64,000 nucleotides of DNA from Natronospira bacteriovora (lineage in GTDB: Bacteria; Pseudomonadota; Gammaproteobacteria; Natronospirales; Natronospiraceae), in NCBI RefSeq assembly GCF_030848495.1, contig NZ_JAVDDT010000008.1:1-64000 (forward strand), read 5' to 3'. The translations under genes were made by a program, and so were the position numbers. This document shows positions 4,306-14,851 of the stretch, one piece after another (within the stretch, counting starts at the first letter, position 1; each line of letters starts with the position of its first letter). Below the pieces are notes generated by a model. That model saw only the letters and a program-made list of their open reading frames with translations. It ran no database searches and had not been told where the DNA came from.

Positions 4306-4395
4306 CGATTACGACTACGACTACGATTACGAGGGCACTGCCCACTCAGCACTCAGCACTCAGCACTCAGCACTCAGCACTCAGCACTCAGCACT
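4306..4395. repeat. Hexamer (CGACTA/CGATTA) run followed by (CACTCAG)n heptamer array
   Basis: A run of hexamers of the type TACGAC/TACGAT at 4308-4332 is followed by the linker GAGGGCACTGCC and about seven and a half CACTCAG units (4343-4395). The same composite, reverse-complemented, follows the aminopeptidase gene at 12146-12240. It ends about 60 bases upstream of the ABC ATPase start, so it lies in that gene's promoter region. Confidence 0.9.
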
Positions 4396-7503: not shown

Positions 7504-7870
7504 TTTAGCCACAGATAAACACAGATAAACGCAGATTTTGGCCGTGCATGGGTTGAGGACGTGCTGCTTCGGAGGGACCTCCGGCGAGGATCAGCAGAGC
7601 CCGTATAGCCTGGAATTGATTAGCCACAGATGAACACGGATGAACGCAGATGTGGGCCGTGCGGGTGCTGAGGGTGTTGGGGTCTGGAGAGGTTGATCGC
7701 GGCGGACGCCACTCCTACAGAAAATATTGAGCGGCGTGCCAGGGGGCGGATTGTTATCGCGGATAAATCCGCTCCTACGGTGCCATTAGATGAATCGGCA
7801 TTTCGTCCGGCACGGCATTCGTCCCCGCCAGGGCCAACATCTGTGTCCATCTGTGTTCATCTGTGGCCAA
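7504..7870. repeat. Repeat block with inverted CCACAGATGAACACAGATG-type ends
   Basis: Copies of the word AGCCACAGATAAACACAGAT at 7506-7525 and 7621-7640 face inverted copies at about 7830-7870 (ATCTGTGTTCATCTGTGGCC). Between them lie GGCCGTGC/GGAGGGACC segments and REP-like units, including GCGGCGGACGCC near 7700 and TCGCGGATAAATCCGC near 7757. No reading frame in this 406-base spacer looks coding. The block separates two genes that are usually neighbours in Gld-type clusters. Confidence 0.8.
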
Positions 7871-10288: not shown

Positions 10289-12148
10289 ATGGTCCGCAAA
10301 CTCATTGCCTGTCTTCTTCTTGCCGGCTTCGCCCTGTCGGGCTGCGAACGGGAGGCGCCCCATCCGCCGGCGGTGCCGGATCCCCATTCCCATGCCAACC
10401 CGGAACAGGTGCGGGTTAGCCATGTGCACATGGATCTGGACGTGGACTTTGATCGCCAGGTACTGGATGGCTGGGCCCGCCTTGATCTGAACTGGGTGGA
10501 TCGCCGGGCAAGCCGCCTGGTGCTGGATACCCGGGACCTGGAAATCCACCGGGTGGAGTTCAAGAGCGGTGAAGACTGGCTGGAGACGGAGTTCACCCTG
10601 GCCGAGGCCGAGCAACACCTGGGCTCGGCCCTGACCATCGAACTCACCGGCCAGCCGGATACGGTGCGCGTGCATTACACCACCAGCCCCGATGCCTCGG
10701 GCCTGCAGTGGCTGACGCCCGAACAGACCGCCGGTGGCGAGCACCCCTTCCTGTTCAGCCAGGGCCAGCCGACCCATGCCCGCAGCTATGTGCCCTTGCA
10801 GGATGCCCCGCAGGTGCGCATCACCTACAGCGCCGTCCTGCGTCCGCCCCAGGGCCTGTTTGCGGTGATGAGCGCGGAGAACGATCCCCACGCCGAGCGT
10901 GACGGGCGCTTCCTCTTCAACATGCCGGAGGCGGTGCCGCCCTATCTGATCGCCCTGGCCGTGGGGGATCTCTACTTCGAGCCCATCAGCGACCGGGTGG
11001 GCGTGTACGCCGAACCGCGTTACCTGGAAGCCGCGGTGGAAGAGTTTGCCGTGACCCAGCGCATGCTGGAGAAGGCCGAGGCGCGTTTCGGCGACTACGA
11101 CTGGGGCCGCTATGACCTGCTGGTGCTGCCGCCGAGCTTCCCCTATGGCGGCATGGAGAACCCGCGGGTGTCTTTCGTGACGCCGACCATCATTGCCGGT
11201 GATGAAAGCCTGGTGTCCCTGATCTCCCATGAGCTGGTGCATTCCTGGGCCGGCAACCTGGTCAACAACGCCGCCTGGCGTGACCTGTGGCTGAACGAAG
11301 GCGTCACCGTGTACATGGAATACCGCAACATGGAAGACGTCTATGACCGTGAGCGGGCGGACATGCAGTCCGTGATCGGTTATCAGGGCCTGCTGGCGGC
11401 GCTGGACAGCCTGCCGCCGGAGCGCCAGATCCTGGCCGTGGATCTCAGCGGACGACCGGCCGACGATGTCTTTACCCTGATCCCCTATCAGAAGGGGCGC
11501 CTGTTCATTACCGAGATCGAGGAACGCTTCGGCCGCGAGCGAACCGATGATTTCCTGCGCCGTTATTTCGAACGCTTTGCCTTCCAGGCCATTACCACCG
11601 AGCACTTCAGGGAGTTCCTGCTGGAGAACCTGATCAAGGGCAACGAGGACATCATGTCACCGGAGCGGGTGCATGAATGGATCTACGAGCCCGGCATGCC
11701 CGAGGGCTACCCCGTGCCCCGCTCGACCGCCTTCGAGCGGGTGGATGAGATGAGCGAGCGCTGGCTGGCCGACGAGATCGGCATCAGCGACATCCGCCGG
11801 GATGACTGGCATGCCCTGCAGTGGGTGTACTTCCTGAACAATCTGCCGGATGAACTCTCCCGCGCCCGCCTGGATGCCCTGGACGAGGCCTTCGACCTGA
11901 CCCATTCGGCCAACTACGAAGTTGCCGCCGCCTGGCTGGAGATCGCCATTCGCAATCGCTATGAACCGGCCATGGAACGGGTACGCGAGTTCCTGCTGGA
12001 AGTGGGCCGCATGAAGTTCCTGCGACCGCTGTATGCCGCCCTGGTGGAAACGGATCGGGAACTGGCCGAAGCGATCTATCTCGAAGCCCGCGCGGGGTAT
12101 CACCCCCTGGGCCGGGATACGGTGGAGCGGTTGTTGGATGAGGATTGA
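10289..12148 (+). CDS. M1 family zinc metallopeptidase, predicted lipoprotein
   Basis: This 619-residue protein starts with a lipoprotein signal whose lipobox LSGC places the acylated cysteine at 19. The M1 exopeptidase motif appears as GGMEN (287-291, variant of GAMEN). The zinc site is HELVH (314-318) with the third ligand Glu337 in LNEG. The C-terminal helical part resembles leukotriene-A4-hydrolase-type members. It should trim N-terminal residues from peptides in the periplasm or at the outer membrane. Two ATGs compete at 10283 and 10289; I prefer 10289 because AGGGAG is then about nine bases away. The stop codon coincides with the first unit of a heptamer array. Confidence 0.92.
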   Translation: MVRKLIACLLLAGFALSGCEREAPHPPAVPDPHSHANPEQVRVSHVHMDLDVDFDRQVLDGWARLDLNWVDRRASRLVLDTRDLEIHRVEFKSGEDWLETEFTLAEAEQHLGSALTIELTGQPDTVRVHYTTSPDASGLQWLTPEQTAGGEHPFLFSQGQPTHARSYVPLQDAPQVRITYSAVLRPPQGLFAVMSAENDPHAERDGRFLFNMPEAVPPYLIALAVGDLYFEPISDRVGVYAEPRYLEAAVEEFAVTQRMLEKAEARFGDYDWGRYDLLVLPPSFPYGGMENPRVSFVTPTIIAGDESLVSLISHELVHSWAGNLVNNAAWRDLWLNEGVTVYMEYRNMEDVYDRERADMQSVIGYQGLLAALDSLPPERQILAVDLSGRPADDVFTLIPYQKGRLFITEIEERFGRERTDDFLRRYFERFAFQAITTEHFREFLLENLIKGNEDIMSPERVHEWIYEPGMPEGYPVPRSTAFERVDEMSERWLADEIGISDIRRDDWHALQWVYFLNNLPDELSRARLDALDEAFDLTHSANYEVAAAWLEIAIRNRYEPAMERVREFLLEVGRMKFLRPLYAALVETDRELAEAIYLEARAGYHPLGRDTVERLLDED

Positions 12149-12240
12149 GTGCTGAGTGCTGAGTGCTGAGTGCTGAGTGCTGAGTGGGCAGTGCCCTCGT
12201 TGTCGTAATCGTAGTCGTAGTCGTAGTCGTAATCGGCATT
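12146..12240. repeat. Heptamer (TGAGTGC)n array and hexamer (CGTAGT)n run
   Basis: About six TGAGTGC units run from the stop codon of the aminopeptidase gene to 12187. They are followed by the linker GGCAGTGCCCTC and a run of CGTAAT/CGTAGT hexamers (about 12200-12236). This is the reverse complement of the composite at 4306-4395, linker included. Confidence 0.9.
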
Positions 12241-12651: not shown

Positions 12652-13476
12652 TCATCGCCGTTCCATGCGATCCACCTTCGCATGCAGTTCCTCGATCAGG
12701 CGCAGCATGCGTTCGCGTTCCAGGCGGGCCTTTTCTTCCCGTTCCGATTGCTTGGCTTCTTCTTCCGTCCAGTGCAGTTCCTGCATGGAATTCACGATGA
12801 TGCCGATGAACAGGTTCAGCACCGTGAAGGACGACATCAGGATGAAGACGATGAAGTACACCCAGGCGTAGGGATAGACATCCATTACCGGGCGGGCGAT
12901 GTCTTCGGACCAGCCTTCCAGGGTCATGATCTGGAACAGGCTGTACATGCTTGCGCCCACGTTGCCGAACTGGCGCGGGAAGGCGTCGCCGAAGAGTTCG
13001 GTGCCCATGACGCCGAAGACGTAGAAGACGATCAGCAGCAGCAGGCCGATCCAGCCGATGCCGGGGATGGCCTTGAGCAGGGATTCGGTGACCACCCGCA
13101 GATGGCCCACGGTGGACAGCAGGCGCAGCACGCGCAGGATGCGCAGGGCACGCAGGACGGACAGGCCGGCCGAATCGGGGACCAGGGAGACGGCCACGAT
13201 CAGGAAATCGAAGACATTCCAGCCATTGCGGAAGAAACGCGGACCCCAGGCAATGAGCTTGATCAGGATCTCGACCACGAAGACGGCCACGATCAGGGTA
13301 TTGGCCAGGCGCATCCAGTCACCCACGGCCGCCACCACCGTTTCGGAGGTCTGCAGACCCAGCAGCGCGGCGTTGATGACGATCAGCGCAATGATGAAAT
13401 TGCGCGGGATCGAACTCTCGATCCATAGACCAAGGCGATCCCGCCAGGGAGCCGTGGGCATACCCAGTACTGCCAT
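12652..13476 (-). CDS. Voltage-gated cation channel (BacNav/CavMr-like), filter TLEGWSE
   Basis: The 274-residue protein has the single-domain six-helix layout of bacterial voltage-gated channels: S1 about 26-42, S2 60-78, S3 86-100, S4 105-122, S5 140-160 and S6 205-230. Four gating arginines recur every third residue at 109, 112, 115 and 118. The selectivity filter is TLEGWSE (185-191); characterised bacterial sodium channels have TLESW. A charged, heptad-like C-terminal helix (about 233-274) is the usual tetramerising coiled coil. Gly at this filter position is known from the Ca-selective bacterial channel CavMr and from domains I and III of animal Cav channels, so calcium permeation is plausible but inferred. 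Confidence 0.93.
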   Translation of the reverse strand: MAVLGMPTAPWRDRLGLWIESSIPRNFIIALIVINAALLGLQTSETVVAAVGDWMRLANTLIVAVFVVEILIKLIAWGPRFFRNGWNVFDFLIVAVSLVPDSAGLSVLRALRILRVLRLLSTVGHLRVVTESLLKAIPGIGWIGLLLLIVFYVFGVMGTELFGDAFPRQFGNVGASMYSLFQIMTLEGWSEDIARPVMDVYPYAWVYFIVFILMSSFTVLNLFIGIIVNSMQELHWTEEEAKQSEREEKARLERERMLRLIEELHAKVDRMERR

Positions 13477-13589: not shown

Positions 13590-14684
13590 CTAGCGATTGC
13601 CGGCCGTTTCCCGTTCCACGCGATTACTGCCCAGACGCTGCGCCCGGTGGAGCGCGTCCTGGGCCCGCAGCAGGAGGCTGGCCAGGGATTCACCGTCACG
13701 ATATTCGGCAATGCCGACGGATGCGGTGCAACGAAGGGTGTCGCCCTCGACGCGGATGGGCAACTGCTCCATGGCATGGCGGATGCGGTTGGCGAAACTC
13801 ACCCCACCGGGCAATGGTGTCTCCGGCAACACGGCGATGAATTCCAGGCCGCTGTAATCACCGATCGCCTCGTCCGTGGCGCTGCGCCGCCCCACCACGT
13901 CCAGTTGCCGGGCGCGGGCCAGCAGACACTTGCCGAAGGCCAGATTGAGCCGTTCGCACATGGCTTCCCCGCGTTCCAGGTGAATCCGGCTCAGGCCGTC
14001 GAGGGCAAGCAGGCAGACACTGAAGGGCACCTGACTGCGGCGATGCCGCACCGCTTCCCGCTGCATCACGGCCAGCAGGGCACCCTGATCCAGCAACTGC
14101 GCGGGGGGCTTGCTCTCCGTTTCGTCGCCACGCACCCTGGATGGCGAGGTCGAAGCACGCGGCAGCGCCAACATCAGCGCCAGGACGGGTAACAGGAAGA
14201 GCACGGCCTGATAGACCGTGACGGACTCGGCCAGCGGCGCCATTGAGGCGGCCCCACCGAGGGGCAAGGCGAGATAGAGGGCGAGCAACAGGAGGCTGAC
14301 CACCCCCAGGCGGCCAGGACCCAGCGCCTGCGCGTGAACGGCGAGCCAGGGCAGTGCCGACAGCAGCAGGAGCAGCCGAGCCTGTTCCGGCTGGGTCAGC
14401 GCCAGCAGGACGATCAGTATGCCACCGGCCAGTGCCTGCGGGAACCACAGGCCCGGGTCACGCCGCGACTGTGCCCAGGGCAGCAGACGCAGACAGAGAA
14501 AGATCAGGGTAAGCGCCAGGATGGCCGACAGGGCAACGGCGAGGGCCAGCACATCCAGCGCCGGCAGAGGCGGCGGCGGCACGGTGCCCAGCCACAGCAT
14601 GACGGCAATGAATGGCAGCCAGCCCAGCAGGGCGGCGAACAGCGGGCGCTGCGAACGAACAAAGGATGACGGTGTGCCAGGCAA
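13590..14684 (-). CDS. Membrane protein with degenerate GGDEF domain
   Basis: This 364-residue product has about six hydrophobic segments in its first 190 residues, then a C-terminal domain that follows the GGDEF fold. The active-site loop reads YSGLEF where GGDEF is expected, and the first metal-binding motif reads ALDGLSR rather than DIDxFK. It is therefore probably catalytically inactive and may bind nucleotide or partner proteins. The start is taken as TTG at 14684, with AGGGGAG about seven bases upstream. The upstream in-frame extension is arginine-rich and unlikely. It is divergent from the next GGDEF/EAL gene across a 365-base spacer. Confidence 0.78.
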   Translation of the reverse strand: MPGTPSSFVRSQRPLFAALLGWLPFIAVMLWLGTVPPPPLPALDVLALAVALSAILALTLIFLCLRLLPWAQSRRDPGLWFPQALAGGILIVLLALTQPEQARLLLLLSALPWLAVHAQALGPGRLGVVSLLLLALYLALPLGGAASMAPLAESVTVYQAVLFLLPVLALMLALPRASTSPSRVRGDETESKPPAQLLDQGALLAVMQREAVRHRRSQVPFSVCLLALDGLSRIHLERGEAMCERLNLAFGKCLLARARQLDVVGRRSATDEAIGDYSGLEFIAVLPETPLPGGVSFANRIRHAMEQLPIRVEGDTLRCTASVGIAEYRDGESLASLLLRAQDALHRAQRLGSNRVERETAGNR

Positions 14685-14851
14685 GTGCTTTCTCCCCTCT
14701 TGAAAACCGCTCGCCTCCCCTTCCCCCCGAAGGACCTGCCCTGGCTGGCGAGGCTTCCGACTGTGATGTCGCCCGCTCAGCTTACCGGCAGTTGTCGCAG
14801 GCGCCAATACCCGACGGCCACCCCGGAACAAAACAATATCGACACCGTGAC

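Follow-up and report, generated by a model that had tools for sequence, protein, structure and literature searches.

A NavMs/NavAb-type channel with a Cav-like TLEGWSE selectivity filter in Natronospira bacteriovora and a possible route to Ca2+ permeability

The DNA analysed here (the window) is a stretch of 64,000 nucleotides from Natronospira bacteriovora (contig NZ_JAVDDT010000008.1, positions 1 to 64,000), which carries on its minus strand a gene for a single-domain voltage-gated cation channel. The channel gene, its main parts and the adjoining upstream gene are listed below, with the evidence in brackets.

12652-13476, minus strand: single-domain, six-helix voltage-gated cation channel gene (open reading frame, PF00520 match, sequence identity, AF2 model, Foldseek and tree)
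13111-13170, minus strand: S4 voltage-sensor segment, residues 103-122 (alignment of 57 relatives)
12904-12924, minus strand: selectivity filter TLEGWSE, residues 185-191 (sequence, cross-species codon table, NavMs/NavAb alignment)
12913-12915, minus strand: Gly188 codon GGC, filter position 4 (codon table; AGC, Ser, in the sister-genus locus L085)
12904-12906, minus strand: Glu191 codon, filter position 7 (Met in canonical relatives)
12901-12903, minus strand: Asp192 codon, first position past the filter (Gly in canonical relatives)
12655-12774, minus strand: acidic neck and C-terminal coiled-coil-like helix, about residues 235-274 (AF2 helix; acidic and heptad-like by eye)
13590-14831, minus strand: membrane-protein gene next upstream of the channel gene and in the same direction, with a degenerate GGDEF domain (SGLEF for GGDEF by eye)

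The channel open reading frame is intact and encodes 274 residues from an ATG start. It matches Pfam Ion_trans (PF00520, E=5.5e-48) and is the sole PF00520 match in the 3.0-Mb genome, while an NCBIfam search of the protein gave no match. An open reading frame on the plus strand (12682-13428) was rejected as a gene, since it lies antisense to the conserved channel. BLASTP identity is 47% to NavMs of Magnetococcus marinus (query identical to locus L232) and 41% to NavAb of Arcobacter butzleri (query identical to PDB 5yua). With 274 residues and one domain, the protein lacks the fused four-domain architecture of Cav channels.

The structure was modelled with AF2 from a 57-sequence alignment (mean pLDDT 81, pTM 0.60), which was used in place of a poor single-sequence model (pLDDT 56). 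The model shows helices S1-S6, P1 (residues 173-184) and P2 (187-200), and a single continuous helix (204-273) that extends through the C-terminal region in this monomer model, and its top Foldseek matches are NavAb, NavMs and CavAb entries. One Ion_trans domain, an S4 segment with regularly spaced arginines and a P1-filter-P2 segment between S5 and S6 are all present, and the alignment of 57 relatives shows no variation at Arg109, Arg112, Arg115 and Arg118 of S4.

The filter is encoded by ACC CTG GAA GGC TGG TCC GAA, followed by GAC for Asp192. The BLASTP alignments to NavMs and NavAb are gapless across P1, the filter and P2, and therefore place Gly188 on NavAb Ser178 (the Ser of TLESW) and Glu191 on Met181, ruling out a position of Gly188 outside the filter. 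The original prediction, of a TLEGWSE filter at residues 185-191 with Gly following the high-field-strength Glu, is thus confirmed, Gly188 being the high-field-strength +1 position. That prediction overlooked Asp192, which stands where Gly is usual and gives a third acidic ring. The channel shares its clade, fold, single domain, S4 arginines and gapless pore alignment with NavMs and NavAb but differs from their TLESWSMG in having TLEGWSED, with Gly for Ser, Glu for Met and Asp for Gly. The canonical Na+-selective BacNav filter TLESWxxG (PMC4225499) is not matched, with Ser replaced by Gly at position 4 and Gly by Asp at position 8.

The closest named relative (81% identity) lies on a contig of a Natronospira sp. 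MAG (locus L002; L084 is the same 21,778-base contig), whose genome belongs to the same genus as N. bacteriovora, and the earlier placement of the host among the gammaproteobacteria is borne out. Members of the genus were isolated from hypersaline soda lakes, one of them in medium with 3 M Na+ (PMC7691419). TLEGWSED is invariant across the three genus genomes examined. The two other genomes encode channels of 80-82% protein identity with the same eight filter residues, despite synonymous differences in the filter codons across the three species (GAA/GAG, GGC/GGT, TCC/TCG, GAC/GAT), so the filter is not a product of chance or error. In the three-species comparison pS is ∼0.51-0.57 versus a pN of ∼0.11-0.13; the channel is under purifying selection in the genus, and the three species together with the low pN rule out a sequencing error or pseudogene. 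It could also be supposed that in a molar Na+ habitat the filter is free to vary under relaxed selection or drift, and that TLEGWSED has no specific role. Soda-lake relatives do vary at position 7 (TLESWSQ in L003, TLESWST in L007), but the fixation of eight residues in three species, near-saturated synonymous change with low nonsynonymous change, and the independent recurrence of similar filters make this very improbable.

The order of the filter changes can be followed among relatives. The only other sampled genome of the family, from a sister genus (L085), has the filter TLESWSEA, while near relatives at 55-63% identity usually have TLESWSMG (e.g. L086, L087 and L088). TLESWSE is also found in the near relatives L090, L092 and L102, and Glu7 arose elsewhere in the family too. 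Within the genus, Gly188 is encoded by GGC or GGT; the sister Ser codon AGC is one transition apart. Since TLESWSE occurs in the sister genus and TLESWSM in most of the surrounding group, Glu7 probably came first, and Gly4 and Asp8 second.

Descent was examined with a tree of 84 channels in which the filter columns were masked. The N. bacteriovora channel groups with L083 and L002 with a branch value of 96, and these with L085 with a value of 98, inside the NavAb-like clade; a branch with a value of 97 separates the AnclNav-like channels, which were so called by their E-D-W filter (the CavMr clade being taken as placed by its authors). These E-D-W channels are 32-40% identical to the N. bacteriovora channel and lie outside the NavAb-like clade. 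The channel is NavMs/NavAb-type by descent, and its membership of the CavMr/AnclNav group is ruled out by the masked-filter tree.

The recurrence of Gly4 was surveyed in 278 distinct channels (200 of them non-E-D-W), a sample drawn by similarity to the N. bacteriovora channel and not exhaustive. The original prediction that characterised BacNav channels have Ser at this position holds for the canonical ones; of the sampled non-E-D-W channels, 23/200 have Gly. Met7 is kept in none of these 23, versus 160 of the 177 non-E-D-W channels that lack Gly4, and an Asp or Glu occupies position 7 or 8 in 19 of the 23. No natural channel combining Gly4 and Met7 (LivAb-type) was found among the 278 sampled. 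On the 84-channel tree Gly4 needs 10 changes (∼10 gains among NavAb-like channels); a single origin of the Gly4 filters was rejected (AU p 1e-37), as was a joining of the Natronospira clade with L195 (AU p 5e-13). The association of Gly4 with loss of Met7 is suggestive, not proven, because phylogenetic pairing left 4 versus 0 well-supported independent pairs (p 0.125, not significant). The Gly4 homologues, NavAb-like or deeper-branching, include L238, L239, L236, L237, L248, L256, L133, L124 and L195, with the filters TLEGWPD, TLEGWVE, TLDGWSG, TMDGWRF, IFDGWSA, TLEGWST and TLEGWAD, none having Met7. No plasmid-borne homologue reaches 60% identity. A full-text search for TLEGW in the open-licence literature returned no description of a natural NavAb-like channel with this motif.

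The original prediction relied on an analogy with CavMr of Meiothermus ruber. This Ca-selective channel (filter TLEGWVD, PCa/PNa >200; PMC7041947) was the only native prokaryotic Ca channel recognised as of early 2026 (PMC12919392), and the stated dependence of CavMr on Gly at position 4 is correct: Gly4 is needed for Ca selectivity, Asp7 is not, and Val6 contributes, V6T lowering Ca selectivity (PMC7041947). The analogy itself stands in part. Both channels have TLEGW and an acid at position 7, but CavMr, whose selectivity is measured, has Val at position 6 where the N. bacteriovora channel has Ser, and was assigned by its authors to the separate AnclNav clade (PMC7041947), not to that of NavMs and NavAb. 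A review proposed Gly at position 4 as a predictor of Ca selectivity for channels of one domain (PMC10120453). This rule is limited by the 2026 result for NavAb S178G (LivAb, TLEGWSM), which stays Ca-impermeable with a PCa/PNa of <0.05 and a PLi/PNa of 2.18 (PMC12919392). The backbone matters, since Gly4 alone admits no Ca2+ in NavAb, and since exchanging filters between the CavMr and NavAb channels yielded no current (PMC7041947).

A native counterpart of CavMr could nevertheless have arisen independently in the NavMs-like clade, as a highly Ca2+-selective channel (PCa/PNa well >10) that would carry Na+ at very low Ca2+, as animal Ca channels do in the absence of divalents. TLEGWSE is nearly the TLEGWVD of CavMr and shares the T-x-E-G-W core of animal Cav domains I and III, although these belong to asymmetric four-domain proteins, and the N. 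bacteriovora channel has one domain and presumably four-fold symmetry. Its three acidic positions would give 12 carboxylates per tetramer, the number also found in the filter of CavAb, an engineered NavAb (TLDDWSD) that likewise has an acid at position 7; CavAb differs in having Asp at positions 3 and 4, where the N. bacteriovora channel has Glu3 and Gly4, and its third acid at position 8. Against this, CavMr also needs Val6, which is Ser here, and the effect of Gly in CavMr is not seen in the NavAb backbone. High Ca selectivity is possible on these analogies but rather unlikely, and selectivity like that of CavMr is one possibility among others.

The engineered LivAb is a precedent for the Ser-to-Gly change, which it carries in a same-clade backbone. 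It suggests a channel of altered but monovalent selectivity, in which Gly4 would widen the entrance, Na+ and Li+ would still pass, and Ca2+ would be excluded or only block. Such a channel might serve Na+ re-entry for pH homeostasis, a role suggested for the Nav channels of alkaliphilic Bacillus, which supply Na+ to antiporters (PMC4225499), and the haloalkaliphilic host genus and the status of the channel as the only Ion_trans gene of N. bacteriovora fit this role. NsvBa of Bacillus alcalophilus provides an alkaliphile BacNav precedent for a native filter that departs from Na+ selectivity, although its filter TLDSWGS is altered at positions 3 and 6 and it belongs to a different (Bacillus) clade (PMC4225499). 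LivAb, however, retains Met181, excludes Ca2+ and prefers Li+, whereas the N. bacteriovora channel has Glu at this Ca2+ barrier of NavAb. Removal of Met181 in NavAb lifts PCa/PNa to 0.36-0.47, the value for S178G/M181A being 0.47 (PMC12919392 Table 2). The N. bacteriovora channel, moreover, has two acidic residues added at the outer mouth. Purely monovalent selectivity is accordingly judged fairly improbable.

The same data make Ca permeability plausible, through the loss of Met7 (0.47 in the NavAb S178G/M181A precedent) and the presence of Glu191 and Asp192. A replacement of Ser by Asp at the NavAb site matching Gly188 raised Ca permeability ∼100-fold (PMC10120453). By analogy with these mutants the channel is likely to be Ca-permeable, and a native Ca-permeable channel, as first proposed, is a good hypothesis. 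The reading we favour, and hold to be reasonably probable, is that a NavMs-type homotetramer was converted stepwise to a Ca-permeable pore, between non-selective and moderately Ca-preferring. In the first step, Met7 would have been replaced by Glu (TLESWSE), removing the published Ca2+ barrier of the NavAb clade. In the second, Ser4 would have changed to Gly and position 8 to Asp (TLEGWSED). In the predicted tetramer, four copies of Glu187 would form the main ring and Glu191 and Asp192 would contribute eight more carboxylates at the outer mouth, raising cation density there, while Gly188, without a side chain to constrict the entrance, would leave it wider. Depolarisation would shift the four S4 arginines and open the S6 gate, allowing divalent and monovalent cations to pass.

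The soda-lake habitat of Natronospira is sodium-rich, and free Ca2+ should be scarce in it, so that a Ca2+ inlet would have no obvious benefit there. The dominant cation in the cell would depend on external Ca2+, and since this should be low in soda lakes, the channel may in practice carry Na+. Genes of the Na+/Ca2+-exchanger type (PF01699), of which the N. bacteriovora genome has two, say little, being common in control genomes (11/14).

Rather than being related to CavMr, the channel is of the NavMs type and lies on a repeatable route towards a Cav-like filter. This places a natural Cav-like filter inside the lineage of NavMs and NavAb, whose structures serve the field as standard models, while NavAb logic does not transfer to the CavMr lineage. 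The living intermediates TLESWSM, TLESWSE and TLEGWSE would make a path from Na+ to Ca2+ selectivity testable with few constructs. If the native channel excludes Ca2+, the T-x-E-G-W signature would not predict Ca selectivity, which would be equally useful.

Related filters were observed in the Magnetococcales, the order of the NavMs genome, where four genomes have two adjacent channel genes in the same direction:

L284, 5902-6720 and 6745-7608: Magnetococcales channel gene pair
L285, 53-871 and 868-1782: Magnetococcales channel gene pair
L286, 5091-5942 and 5946-6902: Magnetococcales channel gene pair
G466, contig 135 (L243 and L247): fourth Magnetococcales channel gene pair

The spacing in the three mapped pairs ranges from a gap of 25 bases to an overlap of 4. 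One member has the filter TMEGWPD (TSEGWPD in L286) and the other TTEGWPT or TTEGWPS, and the members of the pair compared are ∼61% identical to each other. From their sequences, the paired genes are candidates for a heteromeric bacterial channel whose filters resemble those of Cav domains I and III. More speculatively, and perhaps somewhat against the odds, NavAb-type channels may have become Ca-permeable some 10 times, through loss of Met7, an acid at position 7 or 8, and Gly4, with the steps preserved in relatives of Natronospira, and some Magnetococcales ending in a two-gene, probably heteromeric TMEGWPD and TTEGWPT channel that mimics the asymmetry of animal Cav.

The degenerate-GGDEF gene upstream of the N. 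bacteriovora channel is separated from it by ∼114 bases, and by 68 bases in L002, where the GGDEF domain is even more degenerate. In both it is flanked by a GGDEF-EAL gene. It is missing from this place in the third genus genome (L282) and is therefore not a fixed partner; a coupling of the channel to c-di-GMP was dropped for this reason. In N. bacteriovora and L282, the channel gene has an M1 peptidase gene as its neighbour on the opposite side. Promoter and terminator scans at the channel locus gave nothing above shuffles.

Several repeats were observed in the 64-kb window. A REP-like dispersed element, GCGGATAAATCCGCGCCTAC, occurs in 9 copies versus 0.01 expected (at 7759, 12563, 17652, 17716, 33983, 34047, 34163, 34227 and 49198). 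A second dispersed repeat, TCCGTGTTCATCTGTGGCC, has 8 matches versus 0.02 expected (at 7507, 7622, 7840, 7850, 17335, 17828, 34337 and 49309), mostly beside the REP-like element. Perfect heptamer tandem repeats (CACTCAG/TGAGTGC type) are present at 1-28, 4343-4395 and 12146-12186, one of them just past the peptidase gene that adjoins the channel.
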